A stretch of DNA of 43,355 nt from a virus: positions 1 to 43,355 of the IMG/VR virus record IMGVR_UViG_3300046817_000744; one strand, written 5' to 3'. The position numbers were made by a program, and so were the translations under genes. The notes under the pieces were generated by a model, which was given only the letters and a program-made list of their open reading frames with translations, ran no database searches and had not been told where the DNA came from. Positions 1 through 43,355 of this stretch are shown here, piece by piece. The stretch's first letter is position 1. Each line of letters opens with the position of its first letter.

Positions 1-140
1 CCGGAGGCGGAGGCGGAGCGGGAGGCGCAACCGGAGGCGGAGGCGGAGCGGGAGGCGCAACCGGAGGCGGAGGCGGAGCGGGAGGCGCAACCGGAGGCGG
101 AGGCGGAGCGGGAGGCGCAACCGGCTCCGCGGGCTTGCCG
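1..140. repeat. Terminal direct repeat and 30-bp tandem array (left copy)
   Basis: Four perfect 30-bp units, each reading CCGGAGGCGGAGGCGGAGCG then GGAGGCGCAA, are followed by 20 bp of unique flank. The same 140 bp recurs at 43216-43355 with one difference (C at 14, T at 43229). The repeat is coding: on the minus strand each unit encodes VAPPAPPPPP. The identity of the two ends shows that the contig is a circle cut inside this array, so the true number of units is uncertain. Confidence 0.95.
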
Positions 141-5762: not shown

Positions 5763-5969
5763 TCACGGTTGGCGCTTCCGGAGCACGCCATCCGCCGTCC
5801 GTTGCACCCAAACAGGGGAAACGCGGCGAACGCGGAATCCGTCTGGCGTTTCCTCGATCTTCAGGTAGCTCACGCCAAAAGAGAGCGCGTCGAAGATCGC
5901 AAGCGCGCAGTCTTCCGAAGAAAGCCGCGCGATCATCTCCGGCCCGGCTTCGCTTGCTCGCTTGATCAT
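5763..5969 (-). CDS. Hypothetical protein, 68 aa
   Basis: The ATG at 5969 overlaps the TGA of the PrimPol gene (ATGA), so translation is probably coupled. The protein is MIKRASEAG followed by a helix and a short beta-rich region (GVSYLKIEETPDGFRVRR). No motif or family is recognised. It closes the PrimPol transcription unit, about 50 bp before the promoter at 5682-5710. Confidence 0.62.
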   Translation of the reverse strand: MIKRASEAGPEMIARLSSEDCALAIFDALSFGVSYLKIEETPDGFRVRRVSPVWVQRTADGVLRKRQP

Positions 5970-8302
5970 CCCGCTACCTTCCTCACGCTCCAAAGGATTG
6001 TCTTCGAGTGCTTGTCCTCGTGGCCGGTCACGGCAAACCCGCCCACGTTCCGATCCCGCAATCGCTTCAAGAGCAACGCCAGCCGGATGGCCGTGGGCCG
6101 CTCGTGAGCCTTGAGGCGGAGCGCGGTTTCGACAGCTCCGCGGAGCCGTTCGAATTTCGGGGAATGCCAAGAACTGAGTAGGTCTTTCGCGGCCCGAGGC
6201 GTGTGGGCGTTGGCCTCCCAGTGCACGAGCGCTTCTAGGAATCCCTGCACCAGCTCTTGGTTGCTATCGCCCAGCTCGTTCGCATAGACCAAGCCCTCTC
6301 GGCTTTCTCCAACGTCTCCGAGCCCGTGGAAGGCAACGCAAGCCGCGACGGTATCGCGCCAACCCTCGAAGCTTCCCCAAGGCGCAAGGCCAGCCGGGAC
6401 CGGGCTACCCGCGGCAACCCAAGCGCGCCAAAGGCTCACCAGCGCGGCCGTGAATGTCCGCCGATGCTCCCACACGAACGCGTCAAAGTTAGGCTCCGCC
6501 AGATCGGTGCGAAGCTCCGGCCGTTCCTCTTTTGGTGAGATCCGGATGTGCACGATCCTCCGGTGCATGTCCGGGCCGATGCTGCAATTGTTGGCCGTGA
6601 CGTGGAAGATCGTCCGGTTCTTGACCGTGCGTTTCTCCGTTTGGCCAAGGATACGATCCTCCCATTCATCAGCCGTGAGCATCGCGGTTAGCGTGTCTCC
6701 GCCGAGCTGGATCGATACGTTGTCAAAGCGAATCACGCGGCTTCCGCCGAACACGCTGGCGGAGATTGTCTTGCGCCGCTCTTCCTCGTTTCCGCTGAAC
6801 GGCCCAAAGGGCGCATCGCGGCCCATTGCAGCAACGCAACAGAACCGGGAGAGCTTCCCTTTGCCGGCTCCGGCCGTGGGTGCGTCAAACAGGAAGAGCG
6901 GTGTCGGTCCTTCGAATGCGTGGCGAAGGATTGGCGTGAGCGCAGCGCAGTAGAGCGCTGTTCGGTTCACGGGCCGCGCGAACTGAAAATTCTGGATCGC
7001 GTAGTCAATCACGCGCAAGGCTTGTTCCGGCGTGATCGACAAATCGTAGGCCCCGTCAAGCCGTAGGAAGATACCGCTTGCTTGGTCGTAGCCGCTCGCG
7101 TTCAGCACACGCCCGTCCGGGAGCGGTACCGGGCTCGTGCTGATTCCCCGGAGCACGCGTGCGTGCGGGAAGGCGGGTTGGGCCACTAGCTCCTTCACGA
7201 CGCGCTCCGGAACCGGAAGCGGCCGCCCGGTCGTGGCTCGGAAGGTAATGCGCCGGCCAATCTCCGCCGCTATGTGGATCTCGTGCGCGCTGCGAATGGT
7301 CATCGCTCCGGAGTCCGTGTCGAGTCCTGGAATGGGATCTCCGTACGCAACTTGCACAAGCCGGCCGCTCTGTTGATAAAGCTCCGTCTCGCCTAGCGCC
7401 TGCTCTGCAATCTGTGAGGCCTCGTGGAGTTTCTCCGGTTCGTAGATTATCTGCCGGGTTTCGTCGCGTGTGTTTTCCGGTACCGCGAGCCACTCTTGAA
7501 CCTGCCGGACAGTCGCGGTGCCTACGGCTTTGGCAAGCGTACCCCAGCCGGTTAGTCGCTCGCCTCGGGCGTGAACCTCCAACGAATGCGCTACCATGTT
7601 CGCGCGCTTCGAATCGTCTCCGCACACGGCCGTGATGAAACCGAGCGTCTCTTCCGCTTGCCAACCGGATTGAATCAGCGCGCCAGCAAGGGCAAGGCTC
7701 GTCTCGTGGCGTCCACCTTCCGGCCAATTGCGCACAAGAAGGGTTGCAGCTGCAAGCGCGGAGAAGCGCGCGGTTAGTTCGTCGTAGCTCACGCGTGCGA
7801 TTGGCGGAGCGTTGGGCGTGAATTCGATCAGTTCCGGCGTGGTTGGCTCGCCCGGGAGTAGGCGTTGCTTGGAGTCATACGTCGGCGCACGGTAAGAGCC
7901 CGGGAAAACGGTTTGAAGTCCGGTGAACCGAAACTCCAAAAGCATCTTCTTCTTCGTCTCCTTGAATTGGAGCGAGCGCGCGTGATCGCCAGTGACCCAA
8001 TAGAGATAGTGACTCCGTGGTTTGCTTGCGCGTCCGAACGTGAGCGTTGGCGGGAGAAAGTAAGGCGCGAGGTCGACAGCTTCCTTGCAGTCTAGATCTC
8101 CGTCTCCGAGGTTGCCGCTCGGTTCTCCTAGGAGTACGCCAATGTTCTCGTACTTGTCTTGCAACAAGTTTTCGGTTGCGTGTGTGAGCGTGCGTAGCTC
8201 CCACCCGCGTTCGACCGGACCCTTGCGGCCCCGAGGAATCGGGACAGTTGTCCAGCCGGCTTGCTGGTATAGCCGGACCCATTCCAGGATCTCCGTGTTC
8301 AC
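5966..8302 (-). CDS. PrimPol-helicase (primase-polymerase domain fused to an AAA+ helicase)
   Basis: A 778-aa replication protein; the GTG at 8302 overlaps the upstream stop (GTGA). Residues about 1-180 resemble an archaeo-eukaryotic-type primase-polymerase: the metal-binding D-x-D at 69-71 (GDLDC), S-H at 97-98 and an acidic residue at 123 in LLEFRF before a PGSYR strand. Residues about 465-600 form a P-loop ATPase: Walker A APTAGAGKGK (474-483), Walker B VIRFDNV (523-529), sensor VTANN near 568-572 and an Arg pair at 581-582. Proteins of this layout make primers and unwind DNA at phage and plasmid origins. It is the second gene next to the inverted-repeat region at 8.6-8.95 kb, which fits initiation there. 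Assignment is by motif. Confidence 0.85.
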   Translation of the reverse strand: MNTEILEWVRLYQQAGWTTVPIPRGRKGPVERGWELRTLTHATENLLQDKYENIGVLLGEPSGNLGDGDLDCKEAVDLAPYFLPPTLTFGRASKPRSHYLYWVTGDHARSLQFKETKKKMLLEFRFTGLQTVFPGSYRAPTYDSKQRLLPGEPTTPELIEFTPNAPPIARVSYDELTARFSALAAATLLVRNWPEGGRHETSLALAGALIQSGWQAEETLGFITAVCGDDSKRANMVAHSLEVHARGERLTGWGTLAKAVGTATVRQVQEWLAVPENTRDETRQIIYEPEKLHEASQIAEQALGETELYQQSGRLVQVAYGDPIPGLDTDSGAMTIRSAHEIHIAAEIGRRITFRATTGRPLPVPERVVKELVAQPAFPHARVLRGISTSPVPLPDGRVLNASGYDQASGIFLRLDGAYDLSITPEQALRVIDYAIQNFQFARPVNRTALYCAALTPILRHAFEGPTPLFLFDAPTAGAGKGKLSRFCCVAAMGRDAPFGPFSGNEEERRKTISASVFGGSRVIRFDNVSIQLGGDTLTAMLTADEWEDRILGQTEKRTVKNRTIFHVTANNCSIGPDMHRRIVHIRISPKEERPELRTDLAEPNFDAFVWEHRRTFTAALVSLWRAWVAAGSPVPAGLAPWGSFEGWRDTVAACVAFHGLGDVGESREGLVYANELGDSNQELVQGFLEALVHWEANAHTPRAAKDLLSSWHSPKFERLRGAVETALRLKAHERPTAIRLALLLKRLRDRNVGGFAVTGHEDKHSKTILWSVRKVAG

Positions 8303-8532
8303 GAGGATAGAACCGTGAAGGTTTCGAGGTCTTGCGCCGCGATCTCCCGGTTGACCTTGTGTCCTCGCACGGCCGGCTTGCCGGCCACCTCCCACCGGTC
8401 GATCCAGCGGTAGAGCGTGCGTCGGTCCACGCCCATGATCCGGGCAACCGCAGTCACGTTGCCATCGTGTTTGAACAGCAAAGCGCGCACATACAAGAGC
8501 GTTAGAGAGTCAAGCGTCAGCATTCCGGCCAC
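8299..8532 (-). CDS. Fis-type helix-turn-helix protein
   Basis: A 77-aa protein whose residues 22-46 (HDGNVTAVARIMGVDRRTLYRWID) form a strong Fis/NtrC-type HTH, followed by a basic segment. It is the first leftward gene from the divergent control region and overlaps the PrimPol gene, so it is well placed to bind the iteron-like repeats and control transcription or replication. The GTG at 8532 or the ATG at 8523 could be the start; neither has a clear ribosome binding site. It resembles the HTH protein at 1164-1373 only in type of fold. Confidence 0.75.
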   Translation of the reverse strand: MAGMLTLDSLTLLYVRALLFKHDGNVTAVARIMGVDRRTLYRWIDRWEVAGKPAVRGHKVNREIAAQDLETFTVLSS

Positions 8533-8619
8533 AGTCGCACGGTTGCTGTCCAGTTTGCAAGCGATCAGTGTGCGAAATTTGCCGGGAATCTATGGCCCGT
8601 GTGGCAGAATGGTTGATGT

Positions 8620-8942
8620 ATGGTCATGTATGGCCGCGGGTAGTTGCATATGGTCACGTATGGTTTTCTAGAAACCTTGCGGGTAGTGCGTAGAGTTGCG
8701 GTAGTTTTCCCAGCCCTCCCAGCTCCGTACATGTGTCCCTCCCTCTTTGACACTATATGACGATATATAAATAACTAGGTTAGGAGTTTTTTTGGAGCCG
8801 TTGAGTATATAGTAGGTTTATATAAAACCATACGTGTATGGTCATTTGGAGAGGGACACATGCACGGAGCTGGAAGGGCTGAGAAAGGATGCGCAACTCT
8901 ACGCACTACCCGCAAAGTTTCTAGAAAACCATACGTGACCAT
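8620..8942. repeat. Four iteron-like 14-mers around ATGGTCACGTATGG
   Basis: Copies are ATGGTCATGTATGG at 8620-8633 (plus), ATGGTCACGTATGG at 8650-8663 (plus), CCATACGTGTATGGTCA at 8828-8844 (a composite of both orientations) and CCATACGTGACCAT at 8929-8942 (minus). They flank the AT-rich centre symmetrically, as binding sites for an initiator or repressor would. Confidence 0.7.
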
Positions 8943-8945
8943 ATG
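8647..8945. repeat. Large imperfect inverted repeat, arms of about 98 bp
   Basis: The arm at 8647-8745 is repeated in inverted orientation at 8849-8945. Long identical blocks include CATATGGTCACGTATGG, TTTTCTAGAAAC, TTGCGGGTAGTGCGTAGAG and CCAGCTCCGT. The main differences are in a short stretch near 8692-8705. About 103 AT-rich bases lie between the arms. Confidence 0.88.
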
Positions 8946-8991
8946 TGACACGTGTGGGTCTTGATTTGGGCGTTCAGCTTGATCTAGGCTC

Positions 8992-10646: not shown

Positions 10647-10706
10647 GCGGTGCTCCTGGGCGGCCCGGGTTAGGTAGCGGTGCTCCTGGGCGGCCCGGGT
10701 TAGGTA
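10647..10706 (+). repeat. Perfect 30-bp tandem duplication
   Basis: The 30-mer beginning GCGGTGCTCCTGGGC occurs twice back to back (10647-10676 and 10677-10706). The second copy supplies the 5' arm of the terminator at 10691-10754, so the duplication also duplicated that half of the stem. Confidence 0.93.
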
Positions 10707-10754
10707 AACGGCTCGGGTATGTCGAGCAAAGGGACCTAACCCGGGCCGTTTTTT
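10691..10754 (+). terminator. Intrinsic terminator with 15-bp perfect stem
   Basis: CGGCCCGGGTTAGGT (10691-10705) pairs perfectly with 10734-10748 and is followed by six T. The 28-base loop contains an inner GCTCG/CGAGC hairpin. Because the first repeat copy carries the same 5' arm, an alternative pairing is possible. Confidence 0.9.
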
Positions 10755-10756
10755 AA

Positions 10757-10872
10757 TGGTATGCTCCGGCTTGTGGGCATGTTGCCCACGCAAAGGAGCA
10801 CGGCCATCGACTGAACCGAGTCCAGACCGCCCAAGTTGCCCGGGTCTAGATGGGACCCGGGCAATTTCTTTT
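10757..10872 (+). ncRNA. Candidate small structured RNA cassette, copy 1
   Basis: An extended -10-like TGGTATGCT (10757-10765) precedes a GTGGGC/GCCCAC hairpin (10773-10789). That hairpin is nested inside a possible TGCTCC/GGAGCA helix. A terminator follows: an 11-bp stem (10836-10846 with 10854-10864), a 7-base loop and TTTCTTTT. The layout resembles a stand-alone RNA of about 100 nt, but no -35 element is evident and expression is unproven. Confidence 0.38.
10836..10872 (+). terminator. Intrinsic terminator, cassette copy 1
   Basis: The stem TTGCCCGGGTC (10836-10846) pairs with GACCCGGGCAA (10854-10864), with loop TAGATGG and a T-rich tail at 10865-10872. Confidence 0.88.
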
Positions 10873-10889
10873 CCGGGGCCGTTTTTTAA

Positions 10890-11004
10890 TGGTATGCTCC
10901 GGCTTGTGGGCATGTTGCCCACGCAAAGGAGCACGGCCATCGACTGAACCGATTTCAAACGCCCAAGTTGCCCGGGTCTAGATGGGACCCGGGCAATTTC
11001 TTTT
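10890..11004 (+). ncRNA. Candidate small structured RNA cassette, copy 2
   Basis: This is a second copy of the preceding cassette, offset by 132-133 bp. The TGGTATGCT box (10890-10898), nested hairpin and terminator are unchanged. The copies differ mainly in a short linker around 10951-10959, outside the stems. Conservation of the structured parts with change in the linker is what an RNA function would predict, but a recent duplication explains it equally well. Confidence 0.38.
10968..11004 (+). terminator. Intrinsic terminator, cassette copy 2
   Basis: The same 11-bp stem as in copy 1 (10968-10978 with 10986-10996), followed by TTTCTTTT. It is the last strong terminator before the virion genes, about 40 bp upstream of the next start codon. 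Confidence 0.88.
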
Positions 11005-11043
11005 CCGGGATCTGTGAAGCCCTGCGCGTGCTAGCGTCGAAGC

Positions 11044-37069: not shown

Positions 37070-37545
37070 GGCCGCACCTTGAACCGGCCAAGCACGGCCA
37101 TTCCGATCCCGATTGCATCGTACATATTGTGCAGGTAGCTCGGCGCGATCCGGGTTGCCGCATCGTGCACGGTTGCCCGCTCCGCATCCGTGAGCTTGCG
37201 GCGGACCTGCTCCCAGCATTGATCCTTGGAAAGTGAAGCCTTCCACGCGCGCGGTTCGATCTCCGCCACGTCATATCCGAAAGCCTCATACCAACCGGCT
37301 AGCTTCCCGGCATTCCAAGCAAGGGTCATCTTTGCCGTGAGTGGGATCGGTTTGCCGTTTGCTCCTTCCCGGCCGTCCGCTTGCGGCCGTTCAATAGCAA
37401 CGCGGTACCGGGATACTCCTTGCGTTCGTGCAGGCATGTAGCGCTCTTTCGTGATGCCACACTCTGCAAGAGACATGAAACCGGAATTAAACCAGAAAAG
37501 AGCAAACCCGGTCACGTTGCCCGGATCGATTGCTACTAACCCCAT
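37066..37545 (-). CDS. RuvC-like Holliday junction resolvase
   Basis: A 159-aa protein. The RNase H-fold catalytic acids are visible: Asp7 in MGLVAIDPGNVTGFAL, Glu52 in VAIERPQADG and Asp143 in NMYDAIGIG. PRAWKASLSKDQ near 98-109 is the segment before the third strand. Phage RuvC-like enzymes cut branched DNA made during replication before packaging. The ATG at 37545 begins exactly at the first strand; a longer frame upstream lies inside the polymerase gene. It overlaps the polymerase stop by 10 bp. Confidence 0.85.
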   Translation of the reverse strand: MGLVAIDPGNVTGFALFWFNSGFMSLAECGITKERYMPARTQGVSRYRVAIERPQADGREGANGKPIPLTAKMTLAWNAGKLAGWYEAFGYDVAEIEPRAWKASLSKDQCWEQVRRKLTDAERATVHDAATRIAPSYLHNMYDAIGIGMAVLGRFKVRP

Positions 37546-39404
37546 GCGATCAACCTTCCGTCCTTGTGTACGCGTTTTGCGTCCTTCGACCAATATTTCA
37601 TAGCCACGGACTCCACTTTGATCCGGACGTGCCTTAGCCACGGCTCGGCGCCGAGAAGCATGAGCCTTTCCAGCTCCAAGGCTACCTCATGTTCCCAGCC
37701 AGCATCGCATTCCAAAATGAATTCATCGTGTACGAAATTAACGATCCGGGCGTTGGCTTGGTAGAGCACGGAATCCGGCTCCACGTAGCACGCTCGCATG
37801 ATCAACCAACCGGCCGTCTTAGCTATATCCGAGCCCGGGCCTTGGAACATGATGTTGCATGCCTCTGTGAAGCAGCAACGGCCGCGCGCGCGGTTGGAGT
37901 ATGGGAGAACTACCGGTTCTCCAGAGTCAACCAAGCGGGAGACATGCGAGAAGTAATCCGGCATGTCATACCAGCGATCGAACCACAACCGGCGGAGCTG
38001 GCGCGATTGGTCGATCGACACCTCCACGTTGTATGATTGCAAGGCGTAGCTAACGAACGTCTCCGCTCCACAACCTCCAGGAAATCCGAAGTTGGCAACC
38101 TTTGCGCTGTTTCGTGCGTTTTTGACCCAACCGAACATTTTATGATTTGGGTCCTTGTAAATGGCGAAGATCTCATCTTCGGGCCGTTGCAAGAGCGGCG
38201 GAACCATTTCCAGGTGCGGATCGCGGCCGGCGTTGAGTACGTCTCCCAACGTGCTCCGGCCGAAAAGGAAAAACATTGTCTCCGCCAGCGTGCACAACTC
38301 CAAGCCCGCATAGTCGCAAGCCACGAAAACGCGCAATGGCCGCGGAACGAAGCACTCTCGCAAGCCCGGCTTCCGTCTCACGTTTTGGATATTCGGTTGT
38401 TTGGACGACGTCCGGCCGCTCGTAAGGACGTGTTCAATCCGTGTGTGGATAGGCCATCGCACGCCGGCCAAGAGCGTTGGAACGTCCGTGGAGAGGACTT
38501 TGGCAAGCGCGCTGAATTCAGAATACTTGACCAGATCCTTGCTCCCGCTCTTAGCGCAAGCCACGCGCGATGTGGAAATTTCATCGCCCTTGGTCCTCGG
38601 CGGAGACTCGCCTTGTGCTTCGTAGGCTTTGGCTAGCATCTCCCTCGCTCGGTTTACGTTCCGGCTTCCGGGTTCGATCTGTCCTTTGCGCGGGCCGCTC
38701 TTGAGTGTGTGATCTGGCCGGAGCAAGCCAACGGCCCGAAGGTCCGCCGCCACGATCTCTTTCTCCGCGCGAGTCTTCCGAGCGAAATCCTCCACGCCCT
38801 TCGGGTTGGTGCAAATTCCCCAAACGGTCATGAGCTGCAACCAAAACGCGGCCCGTGCTTGGAAGATGTGATCCGGGCACATGGGCATAAATTCATCCTG
38901 GACTAGGCGGACGTCGAACGTGATCCGGGCGTCTGTCTTTGCGTAGGTCTTGGCTGATTCCGGCCACTGCTCGATCGGGATGTGCATCAACTCGCCGAAG
39001 CGCGCTTGCCATTCCGCGTTGACCTTGCGCCCTATCCTATGCCGTTGGGCCAGATCGTCCAGGTTGTATTTGATTTTTAGACTCTTTCCGGAGTCTTCGT
39101 CGTCGTCAAAACCGCCAAGGATTCCCGCATAGTTGTCCTGTAGTTTTTGAACCGTCAGGACATCCTGGATCCGGTCTTCTTCGTACGCCCTGACGATTGC
39201 CGGGAGCGTGTCCGGCCACGTTGCAGCAATTGCCGCAAAGTCATAGGCACCGTGCGCCGTGACCAGCGTGGGGACCGTGAGCAACTCTCGCGGGAAGTCT
39301 CGGAGCAGGTACGTGCTCCCGGCATCCGCGACGGAGACGCAAGCAACCGGAGGCGCCATGCAATGCGGCCCAAAGGCTACGGTTTCGGTATCGAACGAGA
39401 GCAC
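37536..39404 (-). CDS. Family A DNA polymerase with 3'-5' exonuclease
   Basis: A 622-aa replicative polymerase. Exonuclease motifs: FDTET (4-8), HGAYDFAAI (50-58) and YAKTD (153-157). Polymerase motif A is VACDYAGLELCTLA (Asp363, Glu368). Motif B is RNSAKVANFGFPGG (Arg430, Lys434, Phe438) and motif C is VHDE (556-559). Motif A reads DYAGLEL instead of the common DYSQIEL, and motif B has GFPGG where many have GxxYG. All catalytic acids remain. The gene is shorter than bacterial Pol I, as in phages. The GTG at 39404 is the likely start. Confidence 0.93.
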   Translation of the reverse strand: MLSFDTETVAFGPHCMAPPVACVSVADAGSTYLLRDFPRELLTVPTLVTAHGAYDFAAIAATWPDTLPAIVRAYEEDRIQDVLTVQKLQDNYAGILGGFDDDEDSGKSLKIKYNLDDLAQRHRIGRKVNAEWQARFGELMHIPIEQWPESAKTYAKTDARITFDVRLVQDEFMPMCPDHIFQARAAFWLQLMTVWGICTNPKGVEDFARKTRAEKEIVAADLRAVGLLRPDHTLKSGPRKGQIEPGSRNVNRAREMLAKAYEAQGESPPRTKGDEISTSRVACAKSGSKDLVKYSEFSALAKVLSTDVPTLLAGVRWPIHTRIEHVLTSGRTSSKQPNIQNVRRKPGLRECFVPRPLRVFVACDYAGLELCTLAETMFFLFGRSTLGDVLNAGRDPHLEMVPPLLQRPEDEIFAIYKDPNHKMFGWVKNARNSAKVANFGFPGGCGAETFVSYALQSYNVEVSIDQSRQLRRLWFDRWYDMPDYFSHVSRLVDSGEPVVLPYSNRARGRCCFTEACNIMFQGPGSDIAKTAGWLIMRACYVEPDSVLYQANARIVNFVHDEFILECDAGWEHEVALELERLMLLGAEPWLRHVRIKVESVAMKYWSKDAKRVHKDGRLIAWG

Positions 39405-40101: not shown

Positions 40102-40267
40102 TTGGTTCTCCTCTAGAAAATCAGAGCAGAGGTAGCAGTGTCGGATCTCCGGACAGAAACCGCAAAAATGCCCGGGTCAACTCCTAGTCCAGTGTTTGAA
40201 CGCTGGCGCGGTTAGGCTTCGCGATATTCTCAAGGCTACACGGACGCTCGCGGATCCTCTGCTCCGG
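40102..40267 (-). other. Untranslated leader before the MazG-like gene
   Basis: The 166 bases between the tRNA-Gln and the MazG-like start hold the ribosome binding site and a TTGACC at about 40177 without a convincing -10. No gene or clear structure is seen. It may be a processed leader of the tRNA-containing transcript. Confidence 0.5.
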
Positions 40268-40338
40268 TTCCCTGCCGTGGATTCGAACCACGTTATCCCG
40301 GGTCAAAGCCGGGCGCTCTGCCGTTGAGCTAGCAGGGA
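40268..40338 (-). tRNA. tRNA-Gln (anticodon UUG)
   Basis: A complete 71-nt cloverleaf. The acceptor TCCCTGC/GCAGGGA is followed by A73, and the D stem is GCTC/GAGC. The anticodon stem CCCGG/CCGGG has loop CTTTGAC (anticodon TTG at 40304-40306). The T arm is CGTGG-TTCGAAT-CCACG. CCA is not encoded (CCG follows). It reads CAA and, by wobble, CAG codons. The phage uses many CAA codons, so the tRNA may compensate for a host preference. Confidence 0.93.
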
Positions 40339-43018: not shown

Positions 43019-43355
43019 CTAGATCAACTCCGTGAGCACGCCATACGCATCGGCCATCATGCGATGTGCTTCCGCGATCTTCTGGAGCGCGGCGCGCTTC
43101 GCGATCGTGTCCTCGCTCGGAGGCCTCCCGCCTTTCTTGGCCGGCTTGGTTTCGTCCGTGGGAGTTGCAACAATCGAAACGGTTGCAGTTTGCGACGGAA
43201 GCGGAACCGGCGCAACCGGAGGCGGAGGTGGAGCGGGAGGCGCAACCGGAGGCGGAGGCGGAGCGGGAGGCGCAACCGGAGGCGGAGGCGGAGCGGGAGG
43301 CGCAACCGGAGGCGGAGGCGGAGCGGGAGGCGCAACCGGCTCCGCGGGCTTGCCG
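43019..43355 (-). CDS. C-terminal part of the nuclease-polyproline fusion (continues from base 1)
   Basis: This is the same frame as the CDS at 1-1171, read after closing the circle. It contains the rest of the VAPPAPPPPP repeats, a linker (VAPVPLPSQTATVS), a basic KPAKKGGRPPSEDT segment and a final helix AALQKIAEAHRMMADAYGVL. The last helix is well formed and could be a dimerisation or docking element. The stop at 43019-43021 nearly touches the helicase start. Repeat number in the real genome is uncertain. Confidence 0.85.
   Translation of the reverse strand, partial: GKPAEPVAPPAPPPPPVAPPAPPPPPVAPPAPPPPPVAPPAPPPPPVAPVPLPSQTATVSIVATPTDETKPAKKGGRPPSEDTIAKRAALQKIAEAHRMMADAYGVLTELI
43216..43355. 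repeat. Terminal direct repeat and 30-bp tandem array (right copy)
   Basis: One variant unit (T in place of C at 43229), three perfect 30-bp units and the same 20-bp flank as at 121-140. It matches bases 1-140 with that single difference. Confidence 0.95.

Follow-up and report, generated by a model that had tools for sequence, protein, structure and literature searches.

Does the large inverted repeat at which the genes of this virus diverge serve as a replication origin, and is the primase-helicase encoded beside it the initiator that uses it?

The divergence region and its neighbouring genes

The window, by which we mean the whole stretch of 43,355 nt that was analysed, is an IMG/VR virus record, and its genes are those of a phage with a contractile tail: terminase, portal, head protease, major capsid, tail sheath, tape measure and baseplate. 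As the preliminary description had it, the repeat lies at a gene divergence point near an HTH gene and a PrimPol-helicase gene: both of these lie to its left, and rightward genes that run on to terminase and portal lie to its right. Among the leftward genes are those for a Prim-Pol protein whose C-terminal half is helicase-like, a ParB-like protein, a DNA polymerase and a helicase. The family-A DNA polymerase of the phage is encoded at 37536-39404 and a tRNA-Gln gene lies at 40266-40338. Within the window we also observed a perfect 30-bp tandem repeat (10647-10706) directly ahead of a ~133-bp unit in tandem (10740-11009; 95% alike over 88 nt and 100% over 50 nt), each copy of which holds a GC-rich terminator-type hairpin with no match in Rfam. 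The two ends of the window (1-140 and 43216-43355) are 99% alike and consist of a GGAGGCGGAGGC-type repeat; they may be where the assembly of a circular or permuted genome overlaps itself.

The repeat had been described as two arms of about 98 bp, about 90% alike and 103 bp apart, and is real: its arms (Table 1) are 95 nt each, 91% complementary and 109 nt apart, and form the longest inverted repeat in the 43-kb window. The AT-rich interior that had been reported between them is likewise present, as the core holds both the lowest-GC 100-mer and the lowest-GC 60-mer of the window (starting at 8746 and 8763, respectively). Folded as single-stranded DNA, the region has a predicted energy of -114 kcal/mol, against -39.4 +/- 3.6 kcal/mol for shuffles (z = -21). 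Each arm also contains a short ORF behind a possible, G-rich ribosome site (8565-8732 on the minus strand and 8860-8964 on the plus strand), and the two peptides have nearly identical starts (MxGAGRAxKxxATLRTTRKVSRKPYVTIC). We considered the arms as small genes on account of these ORFs, but their divergence is too small for a coding test.

Table 1. Features of the divergence region and its flanking genes (window coordinates)
Feature	Position	Strand	Remarks
PrimPol-helicase, candidate initiator	5966..8302	-	ORF 5966-8395, probable start GTG at 8302
77-aa HTH protein (HTH_28/HTH_29/Fis-like)	8299..8532	-	between repeat and PrimPol gene
ATGGTCATGTATGG, one mismatch to the 14-mer ATGGTCACGTATGG	8620..8633	+	motif search
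Outlying iteron-like site CCGCGGGTAG	8634..8643	+	weak: rank 47 in window by matrix
Left arm of inverted repeat	8647..8741	+	repeat search
14-mer ATGGTCACGTATGG, candidate HTH-protein operator	8650..8663	+	motif search; exact
21-nt element GTTTNNANAAAACCATACGTG, copy	8655..8675	-
Left iteron triad, candidate initiator sites by homology	8677..8704	+	second and third copies degenerate
Units of left triad: TTGCGGGTAG, TGCGTAGAG, TTGCGGTAG	8677-8686, 8687-8695, 8696-8704	+
AT-rich core, candidate melting region	8742..8850	.	33% GC
21-nt element GTTTNNANAAAACCATACGTG, third copy, within core	8816..8836	+	repeat search
Right arm of inverted repeat	8851..8945	-	repeat search
Right iteron triad, mirrored, candidate initiator sites by homology	8888..8915	-	innermost copy weak
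Units of right triad: TTGCGGGTAG, TGCGTAGAG, TTGCGCATC	8906-8915, 8897-8905, 8888-8896	-
21-nt element GTTTNNANAAAACCATACGTG, copy	8917..8937	+
14-mer ATGGTCACGTATGG, mirror position	8929..8942	-	motif search; exact
First rightward gene of late arm, 161 aa	8992..9477	+	no family match

The PrimPol-helicase combines a Prim-Pol N-terminus, a D5/SF3-like ATPase and a candidate C-terminal DNA-binding domain (about residues 700-809), and its helicase part matches the phrog_29234 profile (E = 5e-40). The stop of the HTH gene overlaps the probable start of the PrimPol-helicase (GTGA, 8302-8299). A sequence search of the protein against solved structures gave no significant match, and a structure model computed from the single sequence was of too poor a quality to be used. 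A model based on 30 homologs (mean pLDDT 72.5) is good from about residue 310 and poor in the N-terminal Prim-Pol part; its fold matches D5-type primase-helicases and SaPI5 PriRep1 (7ola and 7pds, E ~2e-5 to 5e-5, probability 1.00, target-normalised TM 0.39-0.44), a likeness of fold alone.

Repeats beside homologous helicase genes

If the inverted repeat belongs with the PrimPol-helicase, comparable repeats may be expected beside related genes. Searches of DNA found no relatives of the region in phages, nor any in viral contigs by an 18-mer of the arm, and searches with single proteins (PrimPol, polymerase) found no viral relatives. We speak here of 35 viral loci collected by protein homology to the PrimPol-helicase alone, in which inverted repeats with a loop of at least 25 nt were recorded. 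The top inverted repeat of the locus falls within 400 bp 3' of the helicase gene in 19 of them, against a chance expectation of 4% per locus (p = 7e-18, uncorrected for relatedness). Counted by identity clusters, the association holds for 5/12 at 40%, 8/18 at 50% and 10/22 at 70% identity (p = 7e-5, 2e-7 and 5e-9, respectively), and an earlier set of 16 loci, which includes one that is apparently no true homolog (L225), gave 7/16 (p = 8e-7). In about half of the homologs no such repeat is the top one of its locus, and TPWB-08 (L192) and several others have no clear repeat. None of the 35 has its top repeat on the 5' side of the gene, which makes the window exceptional in position.

Since cos is often located ahead of terS, a repeat at this place might instead be a packaging site (cos or pac) ahead of the terminase genes, the first rightward gene being perhaps the small subunit by its position. 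That assignment was unsupported by every search we made, and in many other loci similar repeats come after the helicase gene, so that we regard a packaging site as highly improbable.

Many of the homolog arms consist of mirrored sets of two or three phased 9-10-bp iterons, often TGCGGGTA-like and in others of the GGTGACGAT type. Nine TACCCGCA sites stand behind the helicase gene of vir525 (BK063673.1), L215 has mirrored TGCGGGTTT sets and Rctr197k has an AGTGAGC array. An alignment of ten members was too divergent for motif search, and a smaller one was usable. Similarity of the C-terminal domain to that of the window does not sort the homologs by iteron type: L245 has the iteron closest to that of the window, yet a low C-terminal score.

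Shared iterons, candidate operators and the reading as a probable origin

When the 43-kb window was scanned with a matrix built solely from the iterons of vir525 and L215, its two mirror TTGCGGGTAG sites ranked first and second, which counts as one independent match because either arm is a copy of the other; on the 3' side of the PrimPol-helicase gene the scan placed no top-ranked site. In each arm one of the three iterons is close to consensus and the remaining two are degenerate. The window arm has an 8-mer in common with 9 of 24 homolog arms, where none of 1072 control segments of the window does so with more than 6, and a 14-mer in common with the L245 arm, where the longest word shared by these controls is 11; the motif had been spotted before these tests were designed. 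The counterpart of the window triad in L245 is CTGCGGGTAGTGCGTGCTCTGCGGGTAGT. Against the longer, unselected 3' flanks, a 14-mer match also occurs in 10 of 495 random segments, so only the arm-based test is clear. The arms might also be a recent inverted duplication without function, as they are 91% alike along their whole length, well past the iterons; this we consider very unlikely, as their iteron sets and AT-rich core match the design seen in the homologs.

The 14-mer ATGGTCACGTATGG had been proposed as the initiator's iteron. Its exact mirror positions were borne out, and all remaining matches in the window, apart from ATGGTCATGTATGG, have three mismatches. Its proposed role was not borne out: it is absent from the homolog arms, except for a weak 8-mer, GTGACCAT, in L260, and the shared iteron is instead the mid-arm TTGCGGGTAG. 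The outer 14-mers are thus probably not the initiator's iteron and are better read as regulator sites, perhaps operators of the HTH protein.

An alternative is that the region serves transcription control alone, as a divergent promoter with operators: the repeat would then be a control segment present twice, with a leader and HTH operators in either copy, and replication would start elsewhere. The divergence point itself, the recurrence of the 14-mer and the 21-nt element within the region and the adjoining HTH gene would all fit such an arrangement. Several large-terminase relatives of the phage also contain arrays of a short motif in both orientations in non-coding DNA, adjoining a primase/helicase gene or at a divergence point, with a different motif in each (GATCGCAT in L084, TGAGACAC in L090, CTCCCTAC in L092, AACCCTCC in L103 and ATGTCACC in L121), and an XRE-type HTH gene adjoins the array of L090, as this alternative would have it. 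In L103, L121, L092 and L110, however, the genes on both sides of the array run in the same direction, and these arrays therefore cannot be put down to a divergent promoter. The homologous helicase genes, moreover, have such repeats at their 3' side, with an iteron common to the window. A promoter scan found no sigma-70-type site in the region, which says little. Taken together, we judge control without replication to be an improbable account of the region. Further repeats or mirrored motif arrays were seen in these relatives (L110 7359-7540, L098 2126-3144 and L084 396-669), beside other primase/helicase genes or at divergence points.

We conclude that the inverted repeat region is very probably the replication origin of the phage and that it is used by the PrimPol-helicase as initiator, in keeping with the preliminary description. 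Comparative support for this is moderately strong: mirrored iterons around a core stand beside the homologous genes far more often than by chance, and the window arms carry the same kind of iteron. The turn in GC skew that had been looked for at the site lies elsewhere, with the minimum of the cumulative skew at 6871; a purine walk is lowest at 8748, yet this tracks gene direction.

Our confidence attaches to an origin used by this initiator and not to the individual steps by which it might work. In the mechanism we propose, the PrimPol-helicase would bind the mirrored TTGCGGGTAG iteron sets via its C-terminal domain and two ring assemblies would form on them face to face; the two facing initiator complexes envisaged in the preliminary description would fit both the mirrored sets and the SaPI model. 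The rings would then melt the AT-rich core, the Prim-Pol domain would lay primers and the family-A DNA polymerase would extend them both ways, giving bidirectional replication. The same stretch probably also controls divergent transcription, perhaps through the HTH protein acting on the ATGGTCACGTATGG sites. A further step, which we offer as rather doubtful, is that a single element serves as both origin and master control region: its two mirrored arms, in which initiator iterons would be interleaved with HTH operators, would also drive both divergent operons; if so, binding of the initiator would couple the start of replication to the switching between early and late transcription.

More broadly, the mirrored-iteron layout of phage satellites proves common next to the phrog_29234 helicase family in viruses, and these loci suggest that tailed phages have it too. 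Few uncultured tailed phages have a known origin. Mirrored iterons beside phrog_29234 helicases can be recognised in the sequence by itself, which would allow pairs of origin and initiator to be predicted and tested in many viral contigs.

Comparison with known origins

The preliminary description knew of no phage origin with this layout, which was too strong a statement given the precedents of PICI/SaPI, pRN1 and the Bordetella phage BIP-1. PICI/SaPI origins consist of two iteron sets flanking an AT-rich region directly 3' of rep (PMC6092414, PMC7581432). The window resembles them in its two iteron sets around an AT-rich core near the gene of a putative primase-helicase initiator, and in the modelled fold that its protein shares with SaPI5 PriRep1. 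It differs in that its repeat stands upstream of the HTH-PrimPol operon, past the HTH gene and at the divergence point, in that its 95-bp arms are much longer than iterons and its putative initiator is of a different family, and in that it is the whole genome of a tailed phage, where PICI and SaPI are satellites. The region is not a SaPI/PICI origin, because it neither lies 3' of the gene nor belongs to a satellite; it probably works like one.

A large stem-loop origin beside a PrimPol-helicase gene has been proposed for pRN1 and BIP-1 (PMC4234260). Like pRN1, the window encodes a protein with Prim-Pol and SF3-like helicase parts (by a Prim-Pol match and a D5-type fold match) with a small regulator gene ahead of it, and like pRN1 and BIP-1/BPP-1 it has a long inverted repeat near that gene (PMC4234260). 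In pRN1, however, the stem-loop is 3' of the gene and iterons are reported to be absent (PMC4234260), whereas in the window the stem-loop is 5' and iterons are present. A variant of our preferred reading would follow pRN1 more closely, with the arms acting as a hairpin or cruciform and not as binding sites. The predicted hairpin is very stable, and the essential 100-nt stem-loop of pRN1 likewise adjoins its PrimPol-SF3 helicase and regulator genes; the homolog arms, on the other hand, are sets of iterons in which shared motifs can be recognised, and have loops of up to 245 bp, which make a cruciform less likely. We consider this variant unlikely and retain the arms as candidate binding sites.

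Also comparable are vir525 (BK063673.1), L215, L245 and L232/L236, which have a homologous helicase and mirrored sets of TGCGGGT-type iterons; unlike those of the window, their arrays stand at the 3' end of the gene and their arms are shorter. The alpha protein of satellite phage P4 is also a primase-helicase initiator that binds repeats (PMC4234260), as the window protein may do, but has a Toprim primase (PMC4234260). Set against these precedents, the window differs in having its repeat 5' of the operon, past the HTH gene, in its long arms and in being a whole tailed phage instead of a satellite.
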